Assembly (NCBI GenBank): GCA_013359235.1
Contig: JABWCE010000003.1
Location: 1 to 64,000 of the forward strand
Direction: 5' to 3'
DNA: 64,000 nt
Source of the DNA: Bacteroidota bacterium
Lineage (GTDB): Bacteria > Bacteroidota > Bacteroidia > NS11-12g > UBA9320
Shown: positions 5,323-60,308 of the stretch, in pieces
How positions within the stretch are numbered: position 1 is the first letter of the stretch
How the letters are laid out: each line of letters starts with the position of its first letter
The notes under the pieces: model-generated
Told to the model about the DNA's origin: nothing
Seen by the model: the letters and a program-made list of their open reading frames with translations, nothing else
Databases searched by the model: none
Program-made: the position numbers and the translations under genes

Positions 5323-7248
5323 TTAATTAACTATAAGTTTTCTTACAATTTTTTTTTCGGAATTAGCAAGTTTTATAAAATATAAACCTGATGAAATATT
5401 TAAGTTTTTAATTTCGATATCTTGTTCTTTCTCAGAATTAATATAGCGATGATATACTAAATTTCCGATTGCATCAAAAATTTCTAACTTATATTGTCCT
5501 GTTAAACCTGAAGTAACAATTGTAAAATTTCCATTTGAAGGATTAGGAACAATTAACATTTCATTTTCAGTATTTATAGGCTCTTGCGGTTGTTTTCCTC
5601 TGGCAAGGCTGTCAATTATAAAGGCATAATAAATTCTATACCCAAAATCAGTTCCGAAGTTTTTTAAAACATTCGTACCTGTAGCCCTTCTAAATCTTAA
5701 ATATCCGCTACCTTGACCTGAATTTGCCCAAAAACTCAATCCATCAGTGCCTTCGTCAATTAATTCTAATGTATAACACCCGGCTTTCATATTTTTTAAA
5801 GTATCTCTATATACTTTATTGGCTGCTAAATTATCCCTTAAAAGTATTACACTATCTTGCGAATTGCGAATTACATAATGATTTTCATTTGGGTAGTTGT
5901 TTGTTTTAAATTCAACGTACATTTTATCTTTATATACATCTGGCAATTTGAATGGTGACGACATTGAATTGTTTTCAGAATATCCATCCATAGTTCCATT
6001 GCTTTTTATTATTGAACAATGAAAAACATTGGTACCGTCGCCCCTGTAAAATCCGGCATCGTATATAGGCAATAGTATTGTTTGGGTTTGTAAAAATCCA
6101 AGTTTGCCTGTCCATTTATATTTCATTTTATATCCTCCAGAAACATTGTATTCTATGTCTAAAGATGAAATAGTATCAGTTGAATTATTTCTTATTATAA
6201 TTTTTGGTTCTTCGCAAGTAGGGCTAAATTTATTATTAATTTGAGCAATGCTTGGCGAAATGATATCGTATATTTCGGCATCATTAGAGTGGCTGGGTTT
6301 TGCATATTGTATTAAATGGTGGGCCATTACATAATTGCCATTTCCCATACCGGCATTATTAGCAGGTACCGGTGTTATACCATAATCTATTGTAATACTG
6401 TCATTGATTTTATATTTTGTTATATCAAATTCAGTATCTTTTACCCTGTCGCCTGGGCACCAGCCTTCTCGTGAATAAGGCCAGGTACCGCCTTGAGGAA
6501 AAACCGGATTATCAGCACAATCAAGCGTTTGCCAAATATGCCATTCTTTTATTAAATTATTACCCGAATATAGCGAATGTGTATTGTCTTTCCATTCGCA
6601 ACAATGAGGGTAATTACCATCATTACTGTTGTGACCATGTCCGGTAATTCTGCTTCTGTATTTCAATCTGTTTGCTGATGTTTCAACTTTAATTGCTTTG
6701 GAAAAAAGCCGCTTGTTTGATGACAAATCATTGTATGAATAAGACATTGCTCCTTTGTCCCAAATCTGATTAATCTTAATAACTTCGGCGGGAGGAGTAC
6801 CTTTAAAAAATACAAATTTTAAATCTAACAACTCCTGAGTATTTCCTGCCGATAGTTTTACCGAGTCGCGGAGTAAATTTTGATAATCAGTTACGTCATA
6901 TACCCATTTAAAACCATTTGGACCAAGACTTAAATTTATACCGTAAGGTGTAATATACCTTCCTATTTCATACACATTTCCATCTTTTGCAGTTACCAAA
7001 GTATAAGTTAAATAATCCCATTCGCCACAAGGATACTTATTATCGTATTTAGATACTTTGGGGTAACATTTCAAAGTATAAAGCATCAAAACTTTCCGAT
7101 ATTTTTCATTTATTGAAGGAAACTTAAAAATACCGCTTCGCTTTGTTGAATCGCTAAAAACAAAGGTTTGAACTGTATCTGATTGTGCATCAACATTGAA
7201 ATTTGAAAATGCAAAAATCAATAAAAGAAATAAGTAATTTTTTTTCAT
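5323..7248 (-). CDS. Secreted PNGase F-like protein with T9SS sorting domain
   Basis: About 641 residues from ATG at 7248 (an upstream TTG at 7257 is less likely). The signal peptide ends near VDAQ (22). The next 300 residues resemble the two jelly-roll domains of Flavobacterium-type peptide-N-glycosidase F: YPCGEWDYLTY in the N-terminal domain, and TGHGHNSN with NPVFPQGGTW followed by GWCPGD in the C-terminal domain. PNGase F removes N-glycans from asparagine. I have not confirmed the catalytic Asp/Glu residues, so activity is inferred. The C-terminus (about 570-641) is a type A T9SS sorting domain (VPNPSNGNF, ISSGLYFIKLA, KIVRKLIVN), so the protein should be exported across the outer membrane. 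It lies between ssb and HU, on its own transcript on the minus strand. Confidence 0.8.
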   Translation of the reverse strand: MKKNYLFLLLIFAFSNFNVDAQSDTVQTFVFSDSTKRSGIFKFPSINEKYRKVLMLYTLKCYPKVSKYDNKYPCGEWDYLTYTLVTAKDGNVYEIGRYITPYGINLSLGPNGFKWVYDVTDYQNLLRDSVKLSAGNTQELLDLKFVFFKGTPPAEVIKINQIWDKGAMSYSYNDLSSNKRLFSKAIKVETSANRLKYRSRITGHGHNSNDGNYPHCCEWKDNTHSLYSGNNLIKEWHIWQTLDCADNPVFPQGGTWPYSREGWCPGDRVKDTEFDITKYKINDSITIDYGITPVPANNAGMGNGNYVMAHHLIQYAKPSHSNDAEIYDIISPSIAQINNKFSPTCEEPKIIIRNNSTDTISSLDIEYNVSGGYKMKYKWTGKLGFLQTQTILLPIYDAGFYRGDGTNVFHCSIIKSNGTMDGYSENNSMSSPFKLPDVYKDKMYVEFKTNNYPNENHYVIRNSQDSVILLRDNLAANKVYRDTLKNMKAGCYTLELIDEGTDGLSFWANSGQGSGYLRFRRATGTNVLKNFGTDFGYRIYYAFIIDSLARGKQPQEPINTENEMLIVPNPSNGNFTIVTSGLTGQYKLEIFDAIGNLVYHRYINSEKEQDIEIKNLNISSGLYFIKLANSEKKIVRKLIVN

Positions 7249-7461
7249 CAAAACCAAATCAGGTCGTGATATTAGGCAAAATTATTTAGAAGTTTTACAA
7301 AAATTATCCAAATTATCGAAATGATTAGATTAATTGTGAATATTTTATATTTTGATATGTATAGTTTAAATAAAAAATGCAAAAACCAAATAAAATCTAT
7401 TAAAAATGTTTAAAAATAATTTTAAAAATTAGTGATAAAATCTTGTTTTATAGCATTTTTT

Positions 7462-7469
7462 TATATTTG
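7462..7469 (+). promoter_or_regulatory. Promoter -7 element of the HU operon
   Basis: TATATTTG matches the Bacteroidota -7 consensus TAnnTTTG, 31 bases before the HU start codon. A CTTG at 7442-7445 may be the -33 element, although the spacing of 16 is shorter than usual. Confidence 0.5.
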
Positions 7470-7499
7470 TTTGCAAACCTATTTAAATATTGAAAGTAT

Positions 7500-7805
7500 A
7501 TGACAAAAGCAGACGTGATTAACGAAATTTCAGAAAAAACAGGAATCGAAAAGATTGCTGTACAAGAAACAGTAGAAAGTTTCTTTAAAGTTGTAAAAAA
7601 CGCAATGAACGAAGGCGAAAATGTTTATTTTAGAGGATTTGGAAGTTTTATTCTAAAAAAACGTGCTAAAAAAGTTGCAAGAAACATTTCTAAAAACACA
7701 CAGATTACAATTCCGGAACATTTTATCCCAAAATTTAAACCGGCTAAAATTTTCATGGAAAAAATCAAGAAAAGCGAAAAAGTTAAAAAACTTAGTGCTA
7801 AGTAA
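7500..7805 (+). CDS. HU/IHF-family DNA-binding protein
   Basis: A 101-residue nucleoid protein. The N-terminal helical dimerisation region (MTKADVINEISEKTGI) is followed by the RGFGSFILKKRAKK strand segment and the DNA-binding arm (ARNISKNTQITIPEHFIPKFKPAK). The arm region is the form common in Bacteroidota HU proteins. The C-terminus carries an extra lysine-rich tail. It heads a plus-strand run of closely spaced genes (HU, TPR protein, small basic protein, RNase G, OmpA-like lipoprotein, RlmH). HU next to RNase G and ssb is a conserved arrangement in the phylum. Confidence 0.93.
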   Translation: MTKADVINEISEKTGIEKIAVQETVESFFKVVKNAMNEGENVYFRGFGSFILKKRAKKVARNISKNTQITIPEHFIPKFKPAKIFMEKIKKSEKVKKLSAK

Positions 7806-44907: not shown

Positions 44908-45062
44908 TTTATCGGGTTCAAAATTAAAATAGGTAAACTTAGGAAACAAATTGTATTGCTTTTCGTTTCCTGTGTTTTCGATTAATAGACTTTTTTTTCT
45001 GTTAAAGATTATTTTTTAACTTTTCTTTTATTTAATTAAAATCATTAGTTTTTTTGCTGTTG

Positions 45063-46163
45063 ATGACTCACGAAAAATTGAATTTTTCTTTAATTAAGCA
45101 CAATGAACTCAAATTGTTTTTAGTTTCGGTTTTCAAAAAAATAGGTTGCAGTACAAACCACTCAACACTTGCAGCCGATGTACTGCTAACAGCCGACTTG
45201 CGGGGAATTGATTCGCATGGGGCAGCAAGGCTAAAAGGTTATATAGCACTCTGGGAAAAAGGGAGAATAAATACAAAACCAAAATTTAAAATAATAAGGG
45301 AAAAAAACACTACAACTACCTTAGATGCTGATAGTGCTTTGGGATTGGTTTCAGCACCAAAAGCAATGGAAATTTCGATTGAAAAGGCTGAAAAATACGG
45401 TTCGGGCTGGGTTTCGGTTTGTAATTCAAATCATTTTGGCATAGCTGCTTATCACGCTATGAAAGCTATAGAAAAAAACATGATAGGCTATTCTGTTACC
45501 AATGCCAGCCCGCTTGTAGCACCTGCATTTTCAAGAGAGAGGATGTTGGGCACAAATCCAATTTGCTATGCAATACCCGCAGGAAAATATCCACCTATTG
45601 TAATAGACATGGCTACCTCTGCCGCTGCAAACGGAAAACTTGAAATTGCACAAAGAAAAAAATTACAAATAACACAAGGTTGGGTACAAACAGCCGATGG
45701 AAATACATCAACAGACCCTGACGAACTTAAAAATGGCGGCTCATTGCTTCCACTTGGAAGTAATGAAAATCTGGGCTTTCACAAAGGTTATGCCTTAGGC
45801 TCAATGGTTGATATTTTTTCGGGAGTTCTTTCGGGTGCCAATTTTGGACCATGGGTTCCGCCTTTTGTAAGTTTTATTGATGTTTTACCGAATTTGCCGG
45901 GTAAAGGAATTGGGCATTTTGTAGGTGCTTGGCAAATAGATGGTTTTAGAGAAATTGAAGAGTACAATATAAATATTGAGAAATGGATTGAAAGATTTAA
46001 AAAATCTGAACCAATTGACAAAAATGTTAAGGTTTTGATACCTGGCGAACCTGAACATTATTGCTATAAAGACAGAATTGAAAACGGCATTCCAATTATA
46101 GAAAATGTAATAACCGACCTGAAACAAATTGCAGAAAAATTCAAACTACATCATCCTTTTTAA
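45063..46163 (+). CDS. Malate/L-lactate dehydrogenase family (Ldh2) oxidoreductase
   Basis: About 366 residues from ATG at 45063 (an upstream TTG at 45054 is possible). It is the LDH2/MDH2 fold, unrelated to classical lactate dehydrogenase. The substrate Arg/His region is LRGIDSHGAARLKGY, the catalytic His is in SNHFGIAAYHAM, and the NAD-binding stretch shows MLGTNPICYAIP and DMATSAAANGK. It reduces a 2-oxoacid (malate, lactate, ureidoglycolate or a sulfonate analogue); the substrate is not deducible. It is followed by a small membrane protein gene and ung. Confidence 0.92.
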   Translation: MTHEKLNFSLIKHNELKLFLVSVFKKIGCSTNHSTLAADVLLTADLRGIDSHGAARLKGYIALWEKGRINTKPKFKIIREKNTTTTLDADSALGLVSAPKAMEISIEKAEKYGSGWVSVCNSNHFGIAAYHAMKAIEKNMIGYSVTNASPLVAPAFSRERMLGTNPICYAIPAGKYPPIVIDMATSAAANGKLEIAQRKKLQITQGWVQTADGNTSTDPDELKNGGSLLPLGSNENLGFHKGYALGSMVDIFSGVLSGANFGPWVPPFVSFIDVLPNLPGKGIGHFVGAWQIDGFREIEEYNINIEKWIERFKKSEPIDKNVKVLIPGEPEHYCYKDRIENGIPIIENVITDLKQIAEKFKLHHPF

Positions 46164-46977: not shown

Positions 46978-47065
46978 AGTTTATTTTAAAAAAAATCAAA
47001 AACTTATATACCCAAATTATTAACATTATTGGTAAACGTAAAAAGGCTTATTAATTTTGTCAGAT

Positions 47066-47440
47066 ATGGAAATTCAAGGTAGATTAATTACAAAATTACC
47101 CGAACAATCAGGTACAAGTGCAAAAGGAGAATGGAAAAAACAAGATGCCGTAATAGAAACACTTGAGCAATATCCCAAAAAAGTTTGTATAACTTTTTGG
47201 AGTGATAAGGTAGATGAGCTAAAAAAAGTTAATGACGGAGAAACAATCAAAGTGTATTTTGATATTGAATCACGCGAATACCAAGGCAAATGGTACACAA
47301 ACATCAAAGCATGGAAATTTGAACTTAGCGAAAAAAGCAATTTGCAAAATAACAACTCAGAACCTATAACCCAACCTGTAGCTGAAGAATTTGAAAATTT
47401 AAACAATTCTGATAACAGCATTGATGATTTGCCGTTTTAA
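47066..47440 (+). CDS. DUF3127 OB-fold-like protein with SSB-type C-terminal tip
   Basis: About 124 residues from ATG at 47066 (MEIQGRLITKLPEQSGTS); the TTG at 47057 adds three residues. The body matches DUF3127, a small single-domain family of Bacteroidota, with KGEWKKQDAVIETLEQYPKK, KVCITFWSDKVDEL and YTNIKAWKFEL. The pattern resembles an OB fold. The linker is polar and Asn-rich, and the protein ends in NSIDDLPF, which is the conserved partner-binding tip of single-stranded DNA-binding proteins. A role in DNA metabolism is therefore suggested by architecture and by the adjacent ung, but is not shown. Confidence 0.85.
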   Translation: MEIQGRLITKLPEQSGTSAKGEWKKQDAVIETLEQYPKKVCITFWSDKVDELKKVNDGETIKVYFDIESREYQGKWYTNIKAWKFELSEKSNLQNNNSEPITQPVAEEFENLNNSDNSIDDLPF

Positions 47441-47485
47441 AAGAGAAAAAAAATATTTATTGAACTTAAAATTATAAATAAGCCA

Positions 47486-47514
47486 ACTTATCCTCGTTGC
47501 AAACGAGGATAAGT
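47486..47514. repeat. REP-like palindrome, remote copy of 351-379
   Basis: Perfect 11-bp arms ACTTATCCTCG and CGAGGATAAGT around the loop TTGCAAA. It shares arm length, loop length and the CCTCGTnGCAAACGAGG core with the palindrome beside the transposase at 351-379. Between the copies, the fourth pair changes from A-T to T-A, a compensatory change. It lies 46 bases past the DUF3127 gene stop. Confidence 0.75.
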
Positions 47515-47570
47515 GATGGGGTTAATTAAGGAACTCCAGTTTGAAATCACTGTATTAAAGAAAAAACACA

Positions 47571-47691
47571 TTTGAACAGGGTTTGAACGTGAATACTCTC
47601 TCTTTTATACCCCTTAGTACCTCTTGTTCAACTACCGTTCAAGTAAATGAACCACGTATGAACCTATTTGTAACCTATTGGACATTTCGTT
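47571..47691. repeat. 11-bp-phased array of TGAAC/GTTCA half-sites
   Basis: TTTGAAC occurs at 47571 and 47582, GTTCAA at 47626 and 47637, TGAACC at 47648 and 47659, and AACCTATT at 47661 and 47672. All four pairs are exactly 11 bases apart, and the start points of the first three share one 11-base register (the gap 47582-47626 is 44). The order is two forward, two reverse, two forward half-sites. It is located 80-200 bases upstream of the promoter of the T9SS gene. Confidence 0.6.
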
Positions 47692-47772
47692 TTGCTTTTA
47701 TTTTCTGCAAAAAAATTTATCTCCCTTATAATTAGGATTTTCGCACAAAATTATTTATTTTAGTTTATACAT

Positions 47773-47805
47773 TTTGTTTTTCCCCACTTAACTATATTAT
47801 TTTTG
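47773..47805 (+). promoter_or_regulatory. Promoter of the islet T9SS gene
   Basis: TTTG at 47773-47776 and TATTTTTG at 47798-47805 are separated by 21 bases, matching the Bacteroidota -33/-7 pattern. The -7 element covers the first possible TTG start at 47803, so translation must start at the later ATG 47851. Confidence 0.65.
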
Positions 47806-47850
47806 TTTATCATTTTTAAAAAAATCATAAATTTAATTAGTTCTTTAAAT

Positions 47851-49338
47851 ATGAAAACAAATACCAAATCTTTGGGCTTCTTGGCGATAGCTGCCAAACC
47901 AAAACTGTTAGCTACTGTGAATAGCTGCAGAAGCAGAAGGAGTTTTTCTTTACTGCCTATCACATTGGCAGTATTGTTTTTCTTAAAAAGTACAGATGTG
48001 AACTCTCAATCCGGTAGCTCTGACACAAGCATTCCAATGCTTCGTCAGTTTGAAGTAAAATCAGCTGCTTTTGACAAGATGTTCAATAGCAACCTGCTTA
48101 TTTTTACATACACTAGAGATGTGACAGTTTTAAATGGTGTGAACCTAACTCCTGGTGTTAGGGTTTTATTTATGGACAAAAAAACTGGTCAGGTTATGCC
48201 TGCTCCAAAAGCTTTAACAAATGCTAAACATGTTTATATGTATGAAGGTAAACTCTTCTACAAATTAGACAGCACTAGTATTTATAGCTACGACCTTAAA
48301 AATGGCAGTATCAAGCTTTTACTTGCTACAAAAAGCCAAATTATAGGATTTTGGAACATGAGCAACGACCGTATTTTGGTTAACGTCCGAAACGGTGGAG
48401 TTGTAACCATGCCTTTATCCTTAACATCTAGAGCCACATCTCGTCTTGCAATTTATAATTACGAGACAGGTGAAACTATAGATATTTCAAACGAACCAAA
48501 TATTTACCAAGCATTTAGTGTTGGTGAAAAAATTGTGTTCTTTGAATCAGGTTACTGGTTTAATAAACCAGGTGTGTCATTTCGTGCAAACGTTTATGAT
48601 CCCGCAAATGACAAGGTTTACTCTAGAACCGACTTTAATGCCATAGGTTTGAATATCCCAACCTCCGACTCAACATTTATCCTTTGGTACGATCCTGTAC
48701 AAGGTGGTGGACGGAGAATGGCTGTGGTTAATGTTAACCAAGATTTAAACGGAACAACCTTTAACAGGGAAGATCGTTTAACAATGAGTGGTTTCTGGGC
48801 TCCTCCTATTGCTGGTAAGGATGGCGATATTGACCCCGCCTCTCCAAGTCCTTATTTCATGAATAATGAAATGGTTACTGGTGGTAATTGGTGGATTCAA
48901 AATCTAAAAACCAACGAGGTTAACAACAGACCCTATGACGAAGTTTGGGCAATGAACCTATCAACTTTTACTACTTCTTTTGTTGGTAAGTATCGCGACT
49001 ATGTTCGTGATTGGCCAATAACTGAAGGTTATGTAATTGATGGCAGGTTTGTTTCACCTGGTACTAATTGGTTTTACACAACTAAACTTTATGGCGAAAC
49101 TGGTGCAGTAAAAAACACCAAAATAGCCGGAGTCAGTGTTTACCCAAACCCTGCAGTTGGTTACACAACTGTTGATGTGCCTGAAAATGCCGATGTTGAA
49201 GTTTACTCTGTGACTGGTCAGTTGGCCTTTTCACAGAAGGTCTTCAACAGCGCACAAATACCTGTTAATTCAGGTATCAATATAGTAAAAATCAGTACTG
49301 GTAACCTAACCCAAACACTTAAAGTGATTGGGTACTAA
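47851..49338 (+). CDS. Secreted beta-propeller-like protein with T9SS tail, GC-richer than neighbours
   Basis: A 495-residue protein from ATG at 47851; the upstream TTG at 47803 falls in the promoter. The signal peptide is unusually long: about 30 charged or mixed residues (KTNTKSLGFLAIAAKPKLL, with RSRR) before the core SLLPITLAVLFFL and a cut near VNSQ (about 56). The next 370 residues show repeated four-strand units of a propeller (VYMYEGKLFYKLD, IYSYDLKNGSIKLL, LAIYNYETGETI, ANVYDPANDKVY). The type A sorting domain is at the end (VYPNPAVGYTTV, QTLKVIGY). Codons are richer in G/C than in neighbours, which suggests recent transfer. Function unknown. Confidence 0.82.
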   Translation: MKTNTKSLGFLAIAAKPKLLATVNSCRSRRSFSLLPITLAVLFFLKSTDVNSQSGSSDTSIPMLRQFEVKSAAFDKMFNSNLLIFTYTRDVTVLNGVNLTPGVRVLFMDKKTGQVMPAPKALTNAKHVYMYEGKLFYKLDSTSIYSYDLKNGSIKLLLATKSQIIGFWNMSNDRILVNVRNGGVVTMPLSLTSRATSRLAIYNYETGETIDISNEPNIYQAFSVGEKIVFFESGYWFNKPGVSFRANVYDPANDKVYSRTDFNAIGLNIPTSDSTFILWYDPVQGGGRRMAVVNVNQDLNGTTFNREDRLTMSGFWAPPIAGKDGDIDPASPSPYFMNNEMVTGGNWWIQNLKTNEVNNRPYDEVWAMNLSTFTTSFVGKYRDYVRDWPITEGYVIDGRFVSPGTNWFYTTKLYGETGAVKNTKIAGVSVYPNPAVGYTTVDVPENADVEVYSVTGQLAFSQKVFNSAQIPVNSGINIVKISTGNLTQTLKVIGY

Positions 49339-49344
49339 AATATT

Positions 49345-49373
49345 AGTCCCGAACGTATGTGAGGGGCTTTTTT
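49345..49373 (+). terminator. Probable terminator of the islet gene
   Basis: AGTCCC pairs with GGGGCT (one G-T pair) across a 12-base loop, followed by TTTTT, 7 bases past the stop. Confidence 0.5.
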
Positions 49374-49520
49374 ATACTGTCACGTCCTAAAAAAAGTTTA
49401 CAGTTTTTTAATGATAATCCTGATAAAAATTTACAATTCATAATTAATCCTGAATTGGGTTCACAAATGAATTTTTTCTTTTAAATTAAGTTATTTAACT
49501 TTCATTTTTTTGGTCCATTT

Positions 49521-49540
49521 TTTACACTTTTTTGTGTAAA
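49521..49540. repeat. Short hairpin between the islet gene and clpX
   Basis: TTTACAC and GTGTAAA form a 7-bp stem around TTTTTT. It is in the 282-base gap 49339-49620, which otherwise has no gene. This may be a clpX terminator on the minus strand, 80 bases past its stop. Confidence 0.35.
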
Positions 49541-49620
49541 CATATTTTATGACTATACAGTTTCAAAATAGCAATTGGATGGCAAAATATCACCAAAACT
49601 ATAAATAGCTAAAAAATTTT

Positions 49621-50829
49621 TTATGCAGCTTGTTCAAAGAATTTTGATACTTTTTTCAGAGCAAATTCAATTTTTATTTCAATTTGTTTGTTGTGAGTAG
49701 ATGGGGCTTCGTACATTGCATCCATAAAAATAGCTTCGCAAATGCTTCTTAATCCACGAGCACCAAGTTTGCAATCGTAGGCTGTATTTACTATTAAATC
49801 TATTAACTCGTCAGATATTACAAGTTTCTTTTTTTCAAGTTCAAATATTTTTATATACTGCTTTATTAAAGCATTTTTAGGTTCAACAAGTATTCTTTTA
49901 AGCGTAGGTTTATCAAGTGGTTGTAAAGTAGTAATCACAGGCAATCGCCCTATTATTTCGGGAATAAGACCATATTTACGCAAATCTTCTGCCGAAACAT
50001 TTTCGAGCAGGTTTTCGCTTTTTATTTTTTGATTTTTGGCTTTAAAACCTAAAGAATTTTTATTCAATCGCCTTTCAATAATCTTACTTATTCCCTCAAA
50101 AGCCCCGCCGCAAATGAACAATATATTCGAAGTATCAACTGCAATGTACTTTTGTTCGGGATGTTTTCTTCCACCCATAGGAGGGACATTTGTAATTGTG
50201 CCTTCCAATAATTTTAGTAAAGCTTGCTGCACACCCTCGCCCGAAACATCGCGTGTTATTGATGGATTGTCTGACTTACGCGAAATTTTATCAATTTCAT
50301 CAATGTAAATTATACCTCTCTGTGCTTCTTTTACATTGTAATCGGCAGCTTGCAAAAGCCTTGTAATAATGCTTTCAACATCTTCGCCCACATAGCCTGC
50401 TTCAGTAAGAACGGTAGCATCGGCAATGCAAAAAGGCACGTCAAGAATTTTTGCAAGTGTTTTGGCAAGTAATGTTTTACCTGTTCCGGTTTCGCCTATT
50501 AAAATAATATTGCTTTTCTCTAGTTCTACCTCATCATCTTTCTCATAAAGCAATCGTTTATAATGGTTGTAAACTGCAACCGATAATGCTTTTTTTGCAT
50601 CATTTTGACCAATTACCCATTTATCAAGATGTTCTTTTATTTCTTTAGGTAATAGTGTTTTTAAATTTTTGTTTTTAATTTTTTTGTCATTTGTTGAATT
50701 TTGGTTTTCTTCAACAATTGTTACAGCTTGCCTCACACAGTCATCACAAATATTGCTACCAACGCCTGATATTAAAATACCAACCTGATTTTTGGGTCGT
50801 CCGCAAAATGAGCATGAAAGTTTTTCCAT
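49621..50829 (-). CDS. clpX: ATP-dependent Clp protease ATP-binding subunit ClpX
   Basis: A 402-residue AAA+ unfoldase. The N-terminal zinc-binding domain has two CxxC pairs (CSFCGRP and CDDC). Walker A is [12 protein letters not shown], the pore loop is [10 protein letters not shown], Walker B is [10 protein letters not shown]. The ClpP-contact region and sensor 2 (ARGLRSICE) are also present. It unfolds tagged proteins and feeds them to ClpP. It lies 8 bases after clpP, in the tig-clpP-clpX order known from many bacteria. Confidence 0.96.
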
Positions 50830-50837
50830 AGTTAAAA

Positions 50838-51503
50838 TTATACAACTTTTTTTACCAGCACTTCATCAACTATTCCGTATTCTTTAGCTTCCTGCGATGT
50901 AAGCCAATAATCGCGATCGGCATCTTTTTCAATTTTTTTGTATGGTTGCCCTGTGTGTGTTACCAAAATATCATAAAGTTCTTTTTTTAATTTTTGAATT
51001 TCTTTAACAGTAATTTCCATATCAGAAGCCTGACCTTGTGCTCCGCCCAATGGCTGGTGTATCATTACTCTTGAATGTTTCAAGGCTGTGCGTTTGCCTT
51101 TTGCCCCTGCTGCCATCAGCACAGCAGCCATACTTGCTGCAATTCCGGTACAAATTGTACTTATATCGCTTGTTATATATTGCATGGTGTCGTATATACC
51201 AAGTCCGGCATAAACAGAGCCTCCGGGTGAATTAATATATATTTGAATATCACGTCCGGGATTAGTTGAATCTAAAAACAACAATTGCCCGATTACAATA
51301 TTTGCAACCTGGTCATCAATACCGGTACCGAGAAAGATGATTCTATCCATCATCAATCTCGAAAAAATATCCATTTGCGAAACACGCATTTCTCTTTCTT
51401 CAAGAATGTATGGCGTCATGTTTTCAATATAATGGTCAACAAGACTGCTACTAATACCTAAATGTTTTACGGCATATTTTCTGAATTCATTTCCGTTGTT
51501 CAT
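50838..51503 (-). CDS. clpP: ATP-dependent Clp protease proteolytic subunit ClpP
   Basis: A 221-residue serine protease subunit that forms the double heptameric barrel. The catalytic residues are Ser124 ([10 protein letters not shown]) and His149 (HSRVMIHQP), with an Asp near 198 (KDADRDYWL). It starts at ATG 51503, 12 bases after tig, and is followed by clpX. Confidence 0.96.
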
Positions 51504-51515
51504 GATTTTATTATT

Positions 51516-52895
51516 TTAATGATTATGATGATGGTTATGTTGTTTTATAATTTCATAAAAGCCTTCAACAGTGGTTTTTTCTTCTTCAATTGTAACAATA
51601 TTTTTTAAATGATTGATTACAGCACGTTGAAAAGCAATTTCGCCAACTTTATCCATAAATCTTTTATCTTTTTTTTGTTTTTCGGCAAACTCTTTTACCC
51701 ATTCAAAATCAGGGTTTGGAATTCCGTAATTTCTCAACAAATTAGCCGAATAACCAAGTGCTGTTTGATTTATTTCCTCATCGCTTACTTCTATTGAAAA
51801 CAAATTTATCGCCTTTTCCTGAATAAGTTGATATCTTAATCCATTTGATTCTACTTCATATTTTTTTTCAGTATTTTCAGGGGTATAAACATTAGGATGA
51901 GCAGATGAAAGCCATTTTTTCAAAAATTCATCAGGCAATTCAAATGAATGTTTTTCCATTATCAAATGCTCAATTTCATGTTCAAAATGGTTTTCGCTTT
52001 CGTATTTGTAATACGTTTCTACATTTTCTTTAACTTTTGTTCTGAATGTATTTTCGTCAGTAACTACACCTTCACCATATACTTTATCAAATAATTCCTG
52101 ATTGATTTCGGAAGGAGAAAATTTCTGTATATTTTTTATTTCAGCTTCAAATTCAGAGTTGAGGTCGTTTACTCCTTCTTTAGGCAAGCCAGTAACAGAA
52201 CTAATAATTGCTTCATTATTGTTCAACATTTTTTTAAGGTTTACAATTATTTTATCGCCGGTTTTTACACCAGCAAACAATTTTCTTATTTCATCATCTT
52301 TTACCAGTTCAGGAATTACAGTTGTTTCTTTATTGCTTACTCCCCCATCAACAGGTTTGTGGTCTGCATCAAGTTCGGTTAAAGATATAAGAATACTATC
52401 AGTTTCGGCTTCGCTTATTTCTACTTTTTCTAAAATCCCATATCTTTTGCATAGGTTATTTATTTCGTCTTCAATATCTTTTTCAGCTATTTCAATAACA
52501 TATTTTTTTACAACATCCTTATCGCTTATGTTAAAATCAAAATCAGGAGCAAGCCCAAGGTCAAATGCAAATTTAAAATCTTCAGTTGTTTCAATATTTA
52601 TTTCAGATTTTTCGTCAATCAAAAGCGGCTGCCCAAGTATATCAATTTTATTTTCTTTTAGGTAATTATATAGGTTCTCAGTTGCTAATTTATTTATTTC
52701 TTCAGCTAAAACTGGTTTGCCGTAAAGTTTTTTTAACATCCCAATTGGAGCAGTTCCAGGTCTAAAACCGGGTATATTAGCCTTTTTGCGATAATTTTTC
52801 AATTGTTCATCAACTTTAGTTTCATAATCTTCTTTCCCAAGACTCACAGTAAGCACTGCATTAAGTTCATCTTTTTTATCGTATGTTATGTTCAT
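51516..52895 (-). CDS. tig: Trigger factor chaperone with His-rich tail
   Basis: A 459-residue ribosome-associated chaperone. The N-terminal ribosome-binding domain has KANIPGFRPGTAPIGMLKKLYG, which includes the signature loop. The middle (about 150-250) is divergent and not clearly an FKBP-type prolyl isomerase, as is usual in Bacteroidota. The C-terminal helical arms follow. The last residues are IIKQHNHHHNH, a cluster of His that could bind metal. It is the first of tig-clpP-clpX and lies 78 bases after the NicO-like gene on the same strand. Confidence 0.93.
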   Translation of the reverse strand: MNITYDKKDELNAVLTVSLGKEDYETKVDEQLKNYRKKANIPGFRPGTAPIGMLKKLYGKPVLAEEINKLATENLYNYLKENKIDILGQPLLIDEKSEINIETTEDFKFAFDLGLAPDFDFNISDKDVVKKYVIEIAEKDIEDEINNLCKRYGILEKVEISEAETDSILISLTELDADHKPVDGGVSNKETTVIPELVKDDEIRKLFAGVKTGDKIIVNLKKMLNNNEAIISSVTGLPKEGVNDLNSEFEAEIKNIQKFSPSEINQELFDKVYGEGVVTDENTFRTKVKENVETYYKYESENHFEHEIEHLIMEKHSFELPDEFLKKWLSSAHPNVYTPENTEKKYEVESNGLRYQLIQEKAINLFSIEVSDEEINQTALGYSANLLRNYGIPNPDFEWVKEFAEKQKKDKRFMDKVGEIAFQRAVINHLKNIVTIEEEKTTVEGFYEIIKQHNHHHNH

Positions 52896-52973
52896 TTTTT
52901 AATATTGCAAAATTAGTTTTAATCAAAAGGCTTACCAAACGTATTAAAAATTCAATTTGTAATTTTCTTCATG

Positions 52974-53585
52974 TCAGAATTTCAAAAAATACGTCATAAT
53001 GCCAAGCAAAATAAGTATCATACCTGCTATTTTTTTCTCATTGTGTTCAAGAAAATGAAAATTTAATTTTTCAATTGTTTTTTTTCCAGATAAAGCCAAA
53101 ATTGTTATTCCACATACTGTAACAATCAAATAAATCAAAGAAACAAACAAAATGCCTTGCCACCCAAAAGTACCTGCTGCAAAATACAATGTTTCAACCT
53201 CCAGACATGGTGAAAAAAACATTGTCAAAGCCATTGAAAACATTATTTTTTCGAAAGAATGATTTTTTATTTTTTTATTTTCGATATGATGATGTTCCTG
53301 TCCAAAACTTATATAGATAATTCCAAACAAAATAAGTAATAACGGTGCAAACCACGATGTAAATTCACTCATTCGTTTTGCAGCTTCCATACCTATCAAG
53401 CCTATAAGAACACCAAGAATAATAGTACTAAGTGTATGGGCAAAACTTACAACAAATGAAATTTGAAAGGTTTGTTTTTTTGACCACTTTTCGCTTCTTG
53501 CCAATAGAGCCAAACTTAGCCAGTGATGAGGTATTAGAGCATGAACCGCACTTAAAATAAAACTAAAAAAAATAAGCTGAAGCAT
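52974..53585 (-). CDS. NicO/RcnA-like membrane protein, putative metal transporter
   Basis: A 203-residue protein with six predicted membrane segments. HALIPHHW in the first segment and SFAHTLSTIILGVLIG in the third match the HALxPxH and HTxS patterns of nickel/cobalt efflux proteins of the NicO group. A His-rich cytoplasmic or periplasmic loop (GQEHHHIENKK) separates the two halves. FSPCLEVETLYFAAG is the conserved second-half motif. It is expected to move Ni, Co or a related metal. It starts 7 bases after the START-like gene and is followed by tig. Confidence 0.72.
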   Translation of the reverse strand: MLQLIFFSFILSAVHALIPHHWLSLALLARSEKWSKKQTFQISFVVSFAHTLSTIILGVLIGLIGMEAAKRMSEFTSWFAPLLLILFGIIYISFGQEHHHIENKKIKNHSFEKIMFSMALTMFFSPCLEVETLYFAAGTFGWQGILFVSLIYLIVTVCGITILALSGKKTIEKLNFHFLEHNEKKIAGMILILLGIMTYFLKF

Positions 53586-53592
53586 CAGAAAA

Positions 53593-53997
53593 CTATGCTC
53601 CTATTTGGTTTTTGAGATTATGAACTTGATTTTCCCATATCATTACCATCTCTTCAAAATCTTCTTCATCAGCATAGTCGTAAACAATCAAAGCCAAATC
53701 GTCTGTAATTTCATCTTTATGGATAATGAATTCGAGAAATTCATTTGAATAATCATTGTCGAGCCATTTAAATTTTACATGCTTTTTGTTGATATTTTTT
53801 ACAAGTTCAGCATCTCTTTGCTCTCCATCATCCCATTTAAAAGTGTATTTGCTGCCGTGAACTGTTACATCATCAGCAAACCATTCAGTTAAACCAGAAG
53901 GTGATGAAATGTAATTATATAAAGCATTGACAGAACAGTGCATCGGAAATTCCAATTCTATTTTTTGTCTCTTATCGTTTATTTTAGAACTTTGCAT
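53593..53997 (-). CDS. START-like (SRPBCC/AHSA1-related) domain protein
   Basis: A 134-residue single-domain protein. It has the Bacteroidota START-like pattern YISSPSGLTEWFADDVTVHGSK and then TFKWDDGEQRDAELV, VKFKWLDND and DLALIVYDYADEEDFEEM. The fold is a helix-grip with a hydrophobic cavity. The ligand is unknown. It is the first gene of the run that goes on to the NicO-like gene and tig. Confidence 0.85.
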   Translation of the reverse strand: MQSSKINDKRQKIELEFPMHCSVNALYNYISSPSGLTEWFADDVTVHGSKYTFKWDDGEQRDAELVKNINKKHVKFKWLDNDYSNEFLEFIIHKDEITDDLALIVYDYADEEDFEEMVMIWENQVHNLKNQIGA

Positions 53998-54051
53998 TTT
54001 AAAATTTTATTTTTTTTTTAAATTTAAAAAAGTTTGCAAATATATTAATTT

Positions 54052-54678
54052 ATGCTGAAAATCAAAAGACCAGACAAAACTTTGTTTAAAGGACTAAAGC
54101 TTACATTAGCTTTTTGGATTATTATACTTGTTGTACTTTTTGTTTTTACATTGTTTTTTTTTAAAGGTTATTTGAATGTTTTTTTCAGCGAAAATTATTC
54201 AGAGAATTTTGGAACTTTTTTCAAGTTTTTAACTTTTTTTGGCGAGGAATGGATTCTAATTCCTATTTGTTTTATTATTTCTGTTTATTTTAAAGATAAA
54301 ATATTTGCATTAAGAGCAGCTTTGGCTTTTATTATCAATACCTTAATAACATCAATTTCAAAATATTTAGTTTTTGATAGCGTACGCCCTTCATTATATT
54401 TATCAAAATACAATTTGATTTATACCCAAGGAGTTGAATTGCATAAATACAATAGTTTTCCGTCAGGGCATACATCATCGGCATTTGTAGTAGCCTTTAT
54501 TTTGTCTTTCTATTTTAAAAATGAAACTAAAGGTTTGTTTTTTGTTTCTATGGCTTTTTTAGTTGCTTTAAGCAGAATTTATCTTCAGCAGCATTTTGCA
54601 GAAGATATAATTGCAGGTTCTATTATAGGTTTTTTTTCGGCAGTTTTGGCTAATTCAATTTTAATTGTTAAAAAATGA
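54052..54678 (+). CDS. PAP2-family membrane phosphatase
   Basis: A 208-residue protein with about five or six membrane segments. The three phosphatase motifs are KYLVFDSVRP (K-x6-RP), PSGHTSS and SRIYLQQHFAED (SR-x5-H-x3-D), with the active histidines in the second and third. Such enzymes dephosphorylate undecaprenyl diphosphate or phosphatidyl phosphates. The next gene, an undecaprenyl-phosphate-linked sugar transferase, overlaps by 4 bases, so a role in the lipid carrier or lipid A pathway is likely. Confidence 0.92.
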   Translation: MLKIKRPDKTLFKGLKLTLAFWIIILVVLFVFTLFFFKGYLNVFFSENYSENFGTFFKFLTFFGEEWILIPICFIISVYFKDKIFALRAALAFIINTLITSISKYLVFDSVRPSLYLSKYNLIYTQGVELHKYNSFPSGHTSSAFVVAFILSFYFKNETKGLFFVSMAFLVALSRIYLQQHFAEDIIAGSIIGFFSAVLANSILIVKK

Positions 54679-56372
54679 AAATGATTAAATCTCCATATTT
54701 CATTATTACAATTTTATCATCAATATTATTTGTACCTTTTTTGGGTAGTGTGCACCTTTTTGATTGGGACGAAATAAATTTTGCTGAAGCAGCAAGAGAA
54801 ATGATTATTACAGGAAATTATAAAAATATCACAATAAATTTTGAGCCTTTCTGGGAAAAACCTCCTTTGTTTATTTGGTTTCAGGTGATATGTATGAAAA
54901 TATTCGGAATTAATGAATTTGCAGCCCGTTTGCCAAATGCCGTTTGCGGAATTGTAACTTTTAATCTTATTTATTTTATTGGTAAAAAACTATTCAATCA
55001 AAAGTTGGCTATTTGGTGGATATTGTTATATGCAGGGTCGTTTACTCCACATTTCTATTTCAAAAGCGGAATAATTGATCCATGGTACAATTTGTTTATA
55101 TTTTTATCAATATTTCAGCTATTTGAGGCATCAGAAAATGAAAAGAAAAGAAGGTTAAATTTTATGTTTTGCGGTATATTTCTTGGTTTGGCTTTACTTA
55201 CAAAAGGTCCTGTGGCAATTTTAATTTCAGGTTTGTGTGGTTTTGTATTTCTAATAAGTAACAAATTCAAAATGTATTTTGATATAAAAGATTTACTTAT
55301 TTTATTGCTTTTCACAGCTATATTACCCTTATTTTGGTTTTTGCCCGATTGGCTTAAAGGCGATTTTTGGTTCACTTCAGAATTTTTAAAATATCAAATA
55401 GAATTATTCCAAAAACCTGTTGCATCTCATGGGCAGCCATGGTTTTATCATCCTTTGGTTTTGGTACTTGGCTGTTTCCCGGCAATTATAATTTCAATGC
55501 CTTATTTATTAAGAAGAAAAGAAAACATTTCATTTTTAACATGGATGCAAATACTCTTTTGGGTAACACTTGTGATTTTTTCAATTGTAACTACCAAAAT
55601 AGTACATTACTCATCTCTTTGCTATTTGCCTGCTACTTTTATTGGAGCATATTTTTTAAGTAAAAATATTAAATTTTATTTATGGCAAAATTTTTTGATA
55701 TTGCTTGTTGGATTGTTTTACAGCGTAGCATTTGCATTTGTTTTTTTTATAGGCTTTAGCACTACATTCAAAGAAAAAATTATATCACTGATAAATGATG
55801 AATTTGTTGTGCAAAATATATTAGCTCCTACTCAATGGAAGGGATATGAAATAGCTTTTGCTTTCATTTTTTTAATTATTACTTTGGGAGGTTTTGCTAC
55901 CAATTTGAAAAAACCCAACAATAAAGCAATAAAAATATGGCTTATTTCACAAACAGTTTTTATTTTTTTAATTCTAATATTTATGTTACCAAAAATCGAA
56001 AATCATGTTCAGGGAAGTATAATTAGTTTTTATAAAACACTCAAAGGAAGAGATGTTTATGTTGAAACAATAGGTTTTAAAAGCTATGCACACTATTTTT
56101 ACACTGCAAGACATAAGCCAGCTAATGATGATTATTTACAAAATGAAATTAAAAGATATTGCATAAGAAATAATTGGGATAAAACTATAAAACTCAATGA
56201 AAATATACGCAATAAAATTAATGGTTTTAAGCAAACGCTCCTATTTTCACAAACTGTTAATAAACCCGTTTACTTTGTTTGCAAAATCGGCAATAATGAA
56301 TATTTAGATACTGCAAAACAATTTAAACTCGTGTTTAACCAAGGAGGTTATAGGGTTTATGAAAAAAAATGA
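54675..56372 (+). CDS. ArnT/PMT-like GT-C glycosyltransferase
   Basis: A 565-residue integral membrane glycosyltransferase of the ArnT/PMT group (GT-C fold). The first periplasmic loop carries DWDEINFAEAAREMI with the conserved acidic residues, then FEPFWEKPPLFIWFQ. About twelve membrane helices follow, with a soluble C-terminal part (DVYVETIGFKSYAHYF). It moves a sugar from a polyprenyl phosphate to an acceptor such as lipid A or a protein. It is co-translated with the PAP2 gene. The acceptor is not known. Confidence 0.9.
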   Translation: MKMIKSPYFIITILSSILFVPFLGSVHLFDWDEINFAEAAREMIITGNYKNITINFEPFWEKPPLFIWFQVICMKIFGINEFAARLPNAVCGIVTFNLIYFIGKKLFNQKLAIWWILLYAGSFTPHFYFKSGIIDPWYNLFIFLSIFQLFEASENEKKRRLNFMFCGIFLGLALLTKGPVAILISGLCGFVFLISNKFKMYFDIKDLLILLLFTAILPLFWFLPDWLKGDFWFTSEFLKYQIELFQKPVASHGQPWFYHPLVLVLGCFPAIIISMPYLLRRKENISFLTWMQILFWVTLVIFSIVTTKIVHYSSLCYLPATFIGAYFLSKNIKFYLWQNFLILLVGLFYSVAFAFVFFIGFSTTFKEKIISLINDEFVVQNILAPTQWKGYEIAFAFIFLIITLGGFATNLKKPNNKAIKIWLISQTVFIFLILIFMLPKIENHVQGSIISFYKTLKGRDVYVETIGFKSYAHYFYTARHKPANDDYLQNEIKRYCIRNNWDKTIKLNENIRNKINGFKQTLLFSQTVNKPVYFVCKIGNNEYLDTAKQFKLVFNQGGYRVYEKK

Positions 56373-56379
56373 TTTTTAT

Positions 56380-57138
56380 TTACGACAATTTAAAATCCCA
56401 AATGTTTAATTGAAGTATTGAAATTGCTTTTTCTGATGCCATTTGTTCGGCTTTCTTTTTGGTAATGTTTGTTGCTTCAACCAAAAGTTCTTCATCAATA
56501 AACAAACCTACTCTAAAATACTTTAAATTTTTATCAGAATATTCCTCAATCAGTTTAAAATCTATTACTTTTCGGTTTTTTTGCCCCCATTGCAGCAAAA
56601 TACTCTTGTAATTTTCATAAAGCGAATCAAGTTTTTCTATATCAATAAATGGTTTAATTAGTTTTTTTATAACAAATTTCCTGGCTTTATCATATCCATA
56701 ATCAAGATATATAGCTCCAATAAAAGCTTCGAGAGCATTACCGGCAATTCCGTAGAGATTTATATTTTTGGGATTTTTTAACGATTCGCTTAAAACAAGA
56801 AGTTTTTCAAAGCCAAGTTTTGATGCTATTGAAGAAAGTTGTTCACGGCTTACAATTTTTGAACGCATTTCGGTAAGATATCCCTCTCCTTTGCCCGAAA
56901 ATTTTCTAAAAACAAATTCGGCTACAACAAGGTCTATTACAGCATCGCCTAAAAATTCTAGTCTTTCATTACTTAGTTTATCAGAATCTTTTTTATTTAT
57001 AGCTGAGTTGTGAACAAAAGCCTGACGGTATAATCCTAAATTTTTTGGGAAATAACCTGTATATTTCTTTATTAGTAGAGCAAAAATTCTGTCCTTTTTT
57101 CGTCTGAATAAAAGCAATATCAGCCCCTTGCGGCTCAA
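56380..57138 (-). CDS. rnc: Ribonuclease III
   Basis: A 252-residue double-strand-specific endoribonuclease. The catalytic signature is ERLEFLGDAVIDLV, with the second acidic set in NALEAFIGAIYLD. A C-terminal double-stranded RNA-binding domain follows (about 175-245). The start is TTG at 57138, 4 bases after fabF, and residues 1-20 (SRKGLILLLFRRKKD) are an N-terminal extension. The order acpP-fabF-rnc is the common arrangement in Bacteroidota. Confidence 0.94.
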   Translation of the reverse strand: MSRKGLILLLFRRKKDRIFALLIKKYTGYFPKNLGLYRQAFVHNSAINKKDSDKLSNERLEFLGDAVIDLVVAEFVFRKFSGKGEGYLTEMRSKIVSREQLSSIASKLGFEKLLVLSESLKNPKNINLYGIAGNALEAFIGAIYLDYGYDKARKFVIKKLIKPFIDIEKLDSLYENYKSILLQWGQKNRKVIDFKLIEEYSDKNLKYFRVGLFIDEELLVEATNITKKKAEQMASEKAISILQLNIWDFKLS

Positions 57139-57142
57139 AATC

Positions 57143-58384
57143 TCACAAGTATTTTTTAAATATCATAGAAACATTGTGGCCTCCAAAACCAAATGTATTA
57201 CTTAATGCAACATTTATAGTTCGTTTTTGGGCTTTGTTAAAGGTAAAGTTTAGTTTATTATCAATTTCAGGGTCGTCTGTAAAGTGATTTATAGTTGGAG
57301 GAACAATATCATTTTTTACAGCAAGAAGTGAAGCAATTGCTTCTACCCCGCCGGCTCCACCAAGTAAATGTCCTGTCATAGACTTTGTAGAACTTATGTT
57401 TAATTTATATGCATGTTCGCCAAAAACTTTTTTAATAGCAATAGTTTCGGCAATATCGCCAAGTGGTGTACTTGTTCCATGAACATTTATATAATCAATA
57501 TTTTCGGGTTTTAATCCTGCATCATTCAAAGCATTGTTCATAACATTTATAACTCCAATACCTTCGGGGTGTGGAGCAGATATATGATAAGCATCAGCAG
57601 AAAGACCACCTCCGGCAATTTCGGCATAAATTTTTGCTCCTCTTGCCAAAGCATGGTCAAGGGTTTCAAGAACTAAGCAGGCTCCACCTTCGCCTAACAC
57701 AAATCCATCTCGGTCTTTATCGAAAGGACGTGAAGCTGTTGAAAAATCGTCATTTCGTTCGCTAAGTGCTTTCATCGAATTAAACCCACCCATTGCAGCC
57801 TCGTTTACACTTGCTTCAGAACCTCCTGTAACAATAACATCGGCAATTCCATTCTTCAAATAAAGATAGGCATCAAAAAGTGCATTATTGCTTGATGCAC
57901 AAGCTGAAGTAGTTGTAAAATTAGGACCTCTGAAGCCATATTTTATTGAAATATGTCCGCCGGCAATGTCCGAAATCATCATTGGAATAAAAAACGGACT
58001 AAATCTGGGAGTGCCATCACCTTTGGCAAAATCAAAACATTCTTTGAAAAAAGTTATCAAACCGCCTATGCCCGAACCCCATATAACTCCTGTGCGGTCG
58101 AGGTTGCAATTTCCTTCAAGTCCTGCATCTTTAATAGCCTCATCAGCACTAACAATTGCATAATGAGCATAAGGATCCATCCTACGAGCTTCTTTTCGGT
58201 CAATAAAATTTGTTACATCAAAGTTTTTTACTTCGCAGGCAAATTTTGTTTTGAACTTTTCAGCATCAAACCGAGTTATGAGGTTGGCACCACTTACTCC
58301 ATTACACAATGATTCCCAATATTCGGAAACATTATTTCCGATAGGAGTTATGGCACCAATACCTGTAACTACAACTCTTTTCAA
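57143..58384 (-). CDS. fabF: 3-oxoacyl-[ACP] synthase II
   Basis: A 413-residue condensing enzyme. The active Cys162 is in TTSACASS, and the two active His are in VHGTSTPLGD and SMTGHLLGGAG. It elongates acyl-ACP with malonyl-ACP, including the temperature-sensitive step to cis-vaccenate in other bacteria. It lies 15 bases after acpP and is followed directly by rnc. Confidence 0.96.
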   Translation of the reverse strand: MKRVVVTGIGAITPIGNNVSEYWESLCNGVSGANLITRFDAEKFKTKFACEVKNFDVTNFIDRKEARRMDPYAHYAIVSADEAIKDAGLEGNCNLDRTGVIWGSGIGGLITFFKECFDFAKGDGTPRFSPFFIPMMISDIAGGHISIKYGFRGPNFTTTSACASSNNALFDAYLYLKNGIADVIVTGGSEASVNEAAMGGFNSMKALSERNDDFSTASRPFDKDRDGFVLGEGGACLVLETLDHALARGAKIYAEIAGGGLSADAYHISAPHPEGIGVINVMNNALNDAGLKPENIDYINVHGTSTPLGDIAETIAIKKVFGEHAYKLNISSTKSMTGHLLGGAGGVEAIASLLAVKNDIVPPTINHFTDDPEIDNKLNFTFNKAQKRTINVALSNTFGFGGHNVSMIFKKYL

Positions 58385-58399
58385 GTTTTTTTTAAATAA

Positions 58400-58636
58400 T
58401 TACTTTGCGTTTGCTGTAATGTAATCAATAGCTTGACCAACTGTACCGATTTTTTCGGCTTGATCATCGGGAATTGCAATGTTGAACTCTTTTTCGAACT
58501 CCATGATTAACTCTACTGTGTCCAAAGAATCTGCGCCAAGATCATTAGTAAAACTTGCTTCGGGTGTAATTTCTGACTCTTCTACGCCAAGTTTATCAAC
58601 TATAATGGCTTTAACTCGTGATGAAATTTCTGACAT
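58400..58636 (-). CDS. acpP: Acyl carrier protein
   Basis: A 78-residue ACP that carries growing acyl chains on a phosphopantetheine attached at Ser37 ([13 protein letters not shown]). It is acidic and helical, with normal length. It is the first gene of acpP-fabF-rnc, and the gap to the divergent GAPDH gene (196 bases) holds both promoters. Confidence 0.97.
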
Positions 58637-58795
58637 TTTATTTTTTAATTTATTTGCTGCAAAGATTAATTTTTCAAATTAAATAATCAATATAAAATTT
58701 TAAAAGTAGAAAAAATTTTGTTTTTCATTTTAAACCATATAGAGTAAAATTACATTTAATACCACTTTATAATTTAATTTTTTATCATTTTTAAA

Positions 58796-58803
58796 TAAAT
58801 TTG
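58796..58803 (+). promoter_or_regulatory. Promoter -7 element of the GAPDH gene
   Basis: TAAATTTG matches TAnnTTTG, 29 bases before the GAPDH start. Confidence 0.5.
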
Positions 58804-58832
58804 CAGCCTTATTTATTTTCACAAAACATATA

Positions 58833-60308
58833 ATGAATTCGGATATTTTAAAAACTAAAAAAGAAGCTTACGACAAAGAACTTCAATCGTGGATTGACAA
58901 AGAAAAAGCAAGTGCAAGGCTTATTAATGCTGTAAATAAACTTATTTATGACAAATCTGTAGAGCTTATTTTTTTCAGAAATACTCTGATAGATATAAGT
59001 ACATCAGAAGTGCAGAAATTGCATAAATATGCAAAAGATATAATAGAAAAAAATATTGACATATATAATACAGCTAATATTGCCGAAGAAATTTTAAAAA
59101 TTGAGGACTTGTATCCTTCAAAAATTGATATTGGCAGGCTAAGTTTTGAATGGGCAAACGAAACCAACAACAAAAGCGATTTAGGCGTTTTTCTTAAGGA
59201 AAAGTTAAAACATTGCATTGGAAATAATTTATCGCAAATTGAACCAAGAGATGTGGTTTTATACGGTTTTGGAAGGATTGGAAGATTGTTGGCTAGAGAA
59301 CTTATAAGAATATCAGGCAAAGGGCAACTGTTAAAACTTAAAGCAATAGTAACACGCCCCGGAAGTGGAAATGATATAAACAAAAGAGCATCGCTTATGA
59401 AAATGGACTCGGTTCATGGAGAGTTCAAAGGGTCAATATCTGTTGATGCCGAAAATCAATCATTAATAATAAACGGGCAAACAATAAAAATGATTGAAGC
59501 ATCAAAACCTGATACAATTGATTATGAATCTTACGGCATTTCTAATGCTGTACTTATTGATAATACCGGAGTTTACAGAGATAGAGATTCGCTATCGCTG
59601 CACCTGAAATCAAAAGGTATAGCAAAAGTAATGCTCACTGCTCCTGGCAAAGGTGATTTGCCAAATATAGTTTATGGTGTAAACCATGAACAACAAGATT
59701 TGGTAAATGAAAATATTTTTTCGGCAGCATCGTGTACTACAAATGCAATTGTACCGGTTTTAAAAGTGGTTGAAGATAGTTTTGGTATAGAAAAAGGGCA
59801 TATAGAAACAGTACATGCTTACACAAACGACCAAAATTTGTTAGACAACATGCACAAAAAATCTCGTAGAGGGCGTTCGGCGGCTATAAATATGGTAATA
59901 ACCGAAACCGGTGCTGCGTCTGCTGTTTCTAAAGTTATACCCCAACTAAAAAATAAACTTACTGCTAATGCTGTTAGAGTTCCTATTCCAAACGGTTCGC
60001 TTGCAATAATGAATTTGACAATTAAAAAAGAAACAAGCGTTGACGAAATAAATTCAACTATTAAAAAAGCCGCACTCGAAGGACCGCTTGTTAGCCAAAT
60101 TAAATTTTCTATTGATAAAGAACTTGTTTCGAGTGATATAATTGGAAATCCTTGTCCGGCAGTGTTTGACAGTATGGCTACAATAGTATCGCCTGATCAA
60201 AAAAATATTGTACTTTATGTTTGGTACGATAATGAATTTGGTTACACAAAACAAGTAATTAGGCTTGCAAAACACGTTTCATGTGTTAGAAGATTTGTAT
60301 ATTTTTAG
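58833..60308 (+). CDS. Glyceraldehyde-3-phosphate dehydrogenase, long form
   Basis: A 491-residue enzyme, about 150 longer than the usual GAPDH. The NAD-binding start GFGRIGRLLAREL begins near residue 145, so residues 1-135 are an N-terminal helical extension (KEAYDKELQSWIDKEKASARL, with EEILKIEDLYPSKIDIGRL). The catalytic Cys301 is in AASCTTNAIVP and its His partner in HAYTNDQNLLD. It converts glyceraldehyde 3-phosphate to 1,3-bisphosphoglycerate. Extended GAPDHs of this length exist in other Bacteroidota and some Gammaproteobacteria. Whether it works in glycolysis or gluconeogenesis cannot be seen. It stands alone, convergent with ruvC. Confidence 0.93.
   Translation: MNSDILKTKKEAYDKELQSWIDKEKASARLINAVNKLIYDKSVELIFFRNTLIDISTSEVQKLHKYAKDIIEKNIDIYNTANIAEEILKIEDLYPSKIDIGRLSFEWANETNNKSDLGVFLKEKLKHCIGNNLSQIEPRDVVLYGFGRIGRLLARELIRISGKGQLLKLKAIVTRPGSGNDINKRASLMKMDSVHGEFKGSISVDAENQSLIINGQTIKMIEASKPDTIDYESYGISNAVLIDNTGVYRDRDSLSLHLKSKGIAKVMLTAPGKGDLPNIVYGVNHEQQDLVNENIFSAASCTTNAIVPVLKVVEDSFGIEKGHIETVHAYTNDQNLLDNMHKKSRRGRSAAINMVITETGAASAVSKVIPQLKNKLTANAVRVPIPNGSLAIMNLTIKKETSVDEINSTIKKAALEGPLVSQIKFSIDKELVSSDIIGNPCPAVFDSMATIVSPDQKNIVLYVWYDNEFGYTKQVIRLAKHVSCVRRFVYF

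Follow-up and report, generated by a model that had tools for sequence, protein, structure and literature searches.

Between the genes for a DUF3127 protein and ClpX, a Bacteroidota genome carries a lone gene for a T9SS cargo protein. A preliminary description had read the surrounding 2.2 kb as a recent acquisition of a surface protein together with its own regulatory region. The locus therefore raises the question of where this gene came from, and whether it stands as a unit of its own.

The host genome is a draft of 2.65 Mb in 44 contigs. The window, by which we mean the whole 64-kb stretch of DNA analysed, lies on a contig of 180 kb (C28). The background for codon usage and GC consisted of 502 ORFs (>=200 aa) from 851 kb, a third of the host genome. 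For comparison we used 58 relatives including six congeners, 108 genomes of the order, and samples of 395 genomes each of the class and the phylum. The features of the locus are listed in Table 1.

Table 1. Features between and including DUF3127 and clpX (positions in the window)
Feature	Position	Strand	Remarks
DUF3127 gene	47057..47440	+	PF11325, E = 1.4e-33; start alternatively ATG 47066
REP-like hairpin, ACTTATCCTCGTT-GCA-AACGAGGATAAGT	47486..47514		Perfect 13-nt arms; fold z = -6.0
TGAAC/GTTCA half-site array, candidate operator	47573..47685		11-bp steps
Predicted Bacteroidota sigma-A-type promoter, TTTG-N21-TATTTTTG	47773..47805	+	Consensus; transcription start ~47810
Orphan T9SS cargo gene, 495 aa	47851..49338	+	ORF; GTG 47917 as alternative start
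T9SS type-A C-terminal sorting domain, residues ~424-495	49120..49335	+	TIGR04183
Probable terminator of the cargo gene, hairpin AGTCCC...GGGGCT then TTTTTT	49345..49373	+	-10.8 kcal/mol; z = -1.7
MITE-like element or decayed IS end pair, 182 bp	49378..49559		TIR pair
clpX	49621..50829	-	Left end of conserved clpX-clpP-tig block

The cargo protein combines a T9SS sorting domain with an orphan body

The cargo protein consists of a signal peptide, a body of about 370 aa and, at the C terminus, a T9SS sorting domain of type A (CTD), which is the layout of T9SS type-A proteins (Por_Secre_tail, PF18962/TIGR04183) with their variable bodies. TIGR04183 matched residues 430-493, within the last 66 residues and at the extreme C terminus as in other T9SS cargo (38.2 bits, cut-off 23, E = 1e-9), and Pfam Por_Secre_tail scored 24.8 bits, slightly below the family cut-off. 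The domain has the VYPNPA motif and, matched by eye, the mid-domain glycine (VTGQL) and the last-strand lysine (TLKVIGY), both described as conserved features of CTDs in Porphyromonas (PMC11285876).

At the N terminus, a basic n-region (CRSRRS) and the hydrophobic core FSLLPITLAVLFFL (hydropathy 2.62) predict a Sec signal peptide, as T9SS cargo should have. Its n-region had been called unusually long, and this is borne out: the core begins at residue 34, the latest among the sampled CTD proteins, of which those with a clear core have a next-longest core start index of 19 and mostly 0-7. This difference from type-A kin holds if the ATG is the start; use of the in-frame GTG (codon 23) would make the n-region normal. 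CTDs were found in 22 of the 502 sampled ORFs, a rough count, as the profile was contaminated by reverse-strand seeds. Judged from these sequences, they imply that the host probably has a T9SS, and since 21 of them are ORFs other than the cargo gene, the host would be expected to export such cargo.

The second difference from type-A kin lies in the body, which had no match in Pfam, NCBIfam, PHROGs or PDB. No homologue of it was found in the 58 relatives, congeners included, or in the samples of class and phylum, and no credible one in the 108 genomes of the order. Exact-peptide scans of genome contigs and viral contigs likewise gave no relative, nor did plasmids and phages when searched by tblastn. 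Weak matches in G037, G022, G049 and G816 (E = 0.006-0.01) were dismissed, the first being DPP-IV-like and the rest short and low-scoring. As the collections searched yielded no homologue, we file the cargo gene as lineage-specific and only infer its acquisition. Single-sequence AlphaFold2 of the protein reached a pLDDT of only 36 and 39. A beta-rich module for adhesion or binding is the probable fold of the body. Perhaps it is a propeller, a guess that came from blade-like hydrophobic patterns; internal repeats in the manner of propeller blades were unsupported (71 of 200 shuffles were equally good).

Third positions and codon usage set the gene apart

The gene had been described as visibly richer in G and C than its neighbours, with 28-32 G/C in sampled 60-base lines compared to 12 in ung. 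The line in ung is real, but ruler-aligned lines of the cargo gene peak at 27, and counts of 28-34 occur in just about 10% of free registers. Overall GC is 38.6%, compared to 32.2 +/- 3.1% in the 502 ORFs (97.6th percentile). Plain GC alone would mislead, since several neighbours are similar (45054-46163, 37.3%; clpP, 37.4%; fabF, 37.8%). The compositional signal is borne by third positions and codon usage. GC3 is 32.7% compared to 23.7 +/- 3.4% (98.8th percentile) and is raised along the entire gene, and codon usage ranks fifth most atypical of the 502 ORFs (0.8th percentile of codon typicality), as expected of an acquired gene. The proposed compositional islet of 2.2 kb shrinks to the gene itself: the upstream region (27% GC; array part 34.5%) and the space to its right (25%) have ordinary intergenic GC for this genome.

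Atypical codons are no proof of foreign origin, because two other host CTD genes (L103:11188-12717 and L107:9904-11886) are comparably atypical, ranking among the 12 most codon-atypical of the 502 ORFs. Both are candidates for sharing the history of the cargo gene. CTD genes also vary more in codon typicality than other genes (sd 0.067 vs 0.043). We regard the codon signal as supportive of acquisition, but not as decisive. These observations favor the main rival explanation, according to which the cargo gene is a resident that evolved too fast to be traced or arose by recent domain shuffling onto an existing CTD, with codons atypical for another reason and the rearrangement described below incidental. 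The CTD points the same way: its best matches are CTDs of congeners (38-44%), which would be expected of a resident gene and counts against acquisition. Exchange of CTDs between species is reported to be poor (PMC11285876), and a distant donor is therefore less likely unless the CTD was adapted. Residency is at odds, however, with a body that is untraceable in every congener, including the nearest (G001), and with GC3 elevated over the full length of the gene. We consider it a tentative explanation that deserves to be kept.

Translational selection for very high expression, as opposed to origin, could also produce atypical codons. C-ending codons for N, Y and D are indeed up in both the cargo gene and ribosomal genes, but those for F and I are up in the cargo gene and barely move in the ribosomal genes. 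The deviation is uncorrelated with that of the ribosomal set (r = -0.10), the ribosomal-type index lies at the 14th percentile, and GC3 of ribosomal genes is mostly about 0.21, well below the cargo gene. We rejected this explanation, which is mostly refuted and very improbable, as the codon shift differs from ribosomal-protein preference.

Elsewhere in the sample, contig C11 carries the most codon-atypical ORF (L116:4315-5226, G000:C11; GC3 0.45) and another at 7051-7731; this region is possibly mobile or foreign DNA.

A phased array and a predicted promoter precede the gene

The array upstream of the cargo gene contains six strong half-sites (47573, 47584, 47626, 47637, 47648 and 47659) and two weaker ones (47669 and 47679). 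It had been reported from inspection and proved to be statistically nonrandom: none of 5000 dinucleotide shuffles contained as many 11-bp in-phase pairs, and none of 1000 did so when any 5-mer at a spacing of 10-12 bp was counted. Within about 0.9 Mb of host and about 0.3 Mb of sister DNA the cluster is unique, and in viral contigs the pattern gave one match, near chance expectation. Rfam yielded no credible match and Tandem Repeats Finder no repeat.

About 90 bp downstream of the array and 45 bp before the ATG lies the predicted promoter (TTTG-N21-TAttTTTG). Its -7 box agrees with the sigma-A consensus TAnnTTTG of Flavobacterium psychrophilum (PMC9723704). As the consensus is common by chance (six found over 64 kb, 4.3 expected), its position and not its presence is the argument. 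The ATG is preceded by an A at -3, which is favorable in Bacteroidota (PMC6847099). Together with the probable terminator, promoter and array make the claim of an own regulatory region plausible by anatomy, while composition lends it no support.

The palindrome on the far side of the array, earlier called REP-like, was confirmed. It has about three relatives in the genome (C9:21949, C33:162075 and window ~356). Short, intergenic and with related genomic copies, it resembles REP/RAYT palindromes; it is unlike them in numbering only about four copies, and a RAYT gene was not found in the searched third of the genome. In another genus of the family, an ORF resembling a RAYT-type tyrosine transposase was seen by eye near clpX (L093:7439-7957, G007).

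The gene occupies a junction of two conserved blocks

The cargo gene is the sole gene between DUF3127 and clpX. The ung-DUF3127 block and the clpX-clpP-tig block are each conserved in all six congeners and adjacent in none of them. Every congener has a DUF3127 orthologue, with unrelated genes in the place of clpX, and a clpX orthologue, each beside different genes than in the window. In five congeners clpX is followed by a CTD cargo gene of about 1040 aa and then by the gap gene, with udk (a kinase gene) between clpX and cargo gene in G003, G004 and G006 and one further gene after the cargo gene in G003. In G001, clpX and DUF3127 lie on separate contigs, each beside yet other genes. Its flanks are two separate conserved blocks that no congener joins, so the islet sits in a rearrangement junction. 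The cargo gene occupies exactly this junction, which is peculiar to the host among the genomes seen. The comparison with sister genomes that the preliminary description had proposed thus found gene and junction both absent in all six congeners; as expected of an acquired gene, the absence extends to the rest of the sister genomes.

In the window the gap gene lies at 58833, on the opposite side of the clpX block from the cargo gene. As five congeners have it past their clpX-side cargo gene, the clpX block is inverted relative to gap in the window. Within 49621-60308, this inversion covers the block from clpX to fabF (57143-58384) when compared with congeners that have both on one contig, which puts a second breakpoint at about 58385-58832.

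The CTD cargo gene 3' of clpX in five congeners, different as it is, marks a spot frequented by cargo and thereby speaks for residency. We also tried our gene as a relic of that clpX-side cargo and rejected this, as blastp gave only a 25-residue CTD stretch (E = 0.22), which is a point against residency as well.

An IS3-derived remnant borders the gene on the right

The space between the cargo gene and clpX had been taken as a gap without genes. It is not empty, as a decayed inverted-repeat element lies inside it, with TIRs TGTCACGTCCTAAAAAAAGTTTACA (49378-49402) and TGTAAACATATTTTATGACTATACA (49535-49559), the right one decayed. The same TIRs, TGTC[AT]CGTCCTAAAA.A.GTTTACA, enclose ISs of about 1.4 kb in two more distant relatives, G020 and G037. 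In the G020 copy an OrfA carries HTH_Tnp_1 and an OrfB an rve integrase core, which is how IS3-family elements are laid out. The element thereby shares its ends with an autonomous IS, as a derived MITE would. It is unlike IS3-family ISs in its length, the missing transposase, the decay of its right TIR and the flanks (TAC on the left, GTT on the right), in which no target-site duplication was seen. No second IS copy was found left of the cargo gene.

Partial copies of varying extent occur at eight other places in the host genome; the best share 80-85% identity across some 80-145 bp, and the one 97% match covers 34 bp. Three of the nine places adjoin CTD genes, and one of these three overlaps the start of the cargo ORF. 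In G001 the repeat was matched 17 times; among these matches are a 208-bp pair and a 1.4-kb pair with a broken transposase.

Some copies stand out by their context. At L126:1480-3028 (G000:C24 ~82319-82463), a copy overlaps the 5' end of a different T9SS cargo ORF, whose ATG and first ~20 codons (MYCKLISGLSLKYCKLLSGRNS...) it seems to provide. At L131 (G000:C8:27433-27492), both TIRs of the IS are fused into a palindrome of ~58 bp between two sorting-domain-like genes. In G001, a broken 1.4-kb copy lies directly 3' of gap (L137, G001:C51:8778-10179), and in other congeners gap flanks the synteny break on the clpX side.

An assembly artefact, that is a chimeric contig or a foreign piece binned in, might be suspected in a draft of 44 contigs with repeats on both sides of the junction, but it is the least probable explanation of all, as the genome is reported 100% complete with 0.04% contamination, the other copies of the element are insufficient for a misjoin, the junction lies 47 kb within its contig and both flanks resemble the same congener most, G001.

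Origin and proposed working of the cargo unit

A gain of the cargo gene within the host lineage is well supported. Its foreign origin, which we infer, would be the better of two readings, with a fast-evolving resident as the main rival. Absence from sisters, atypical codons and the IS remnant fit such a gain. The preliminary description is partly confirmed in what it observed, and its reading as an acquisition is partly supported. Against a foreign origin stands that the collections searched gave no donor, nor any homologue in a plausible donor with a discordant gene tree. The proposed recency cannot be dated against the nearest genome, G001, which belongs to another species (84% identity in clpX).

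We propose, with a probability of roughly 0.55, that the locus is a lineage-specific, self-contained cargo unit, gained after the split from the nearest sequenced congener at a junction with an IS3-derived remnant. What we observed is an orphan body with a sorting domain, encoded with atypical codons by a gene that the sisters lack, together with broken synteny, TIRs of IS type and a nonrandom array, and this explanation accounts for it best. Horizontal acquisition of one cargo gene would be its probable origin, and recombination at dispersed IS remnants may have brought the ung-DUF3127 block and the clpX block together on either side of it. A regulator could bind the helically phased TGAAC/GTTCA sites and control the sigma-A promoter, from which transcription would run through the cargo gene to the terminator. 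The protein would then leave the cytoplasm by its signal peptide via Sec. Its CTD would take it across the outer membrane by way of the T9SS and would be cut off on release or anchoring of the body.

Implications for surface repertoires in Bacteroidota

T9SS cargo units of a single gene and genome change of this kind are already known; the body is an orphan without known relatives. It may represent a new fold or family, at present out of reach as relatives are wanting. The locus offers a concrete case of a secreted repertoire changing by single genes, here an orphan cargo gene with its own predicted promoter and terminator. Should the link with IS remnants extend to cargo genes in general, it would point to a way in which surfaces diversify in Bacteroidota. 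It is a long shot that T9SS cargo genes land or recombine at miniature IS3-derived elements and that an undescribed regulator of the array arrives with the imported cargo. Were this true, junctions that carry such elements would be the places where the genus exchanges its surface repertoire one gene at a time.
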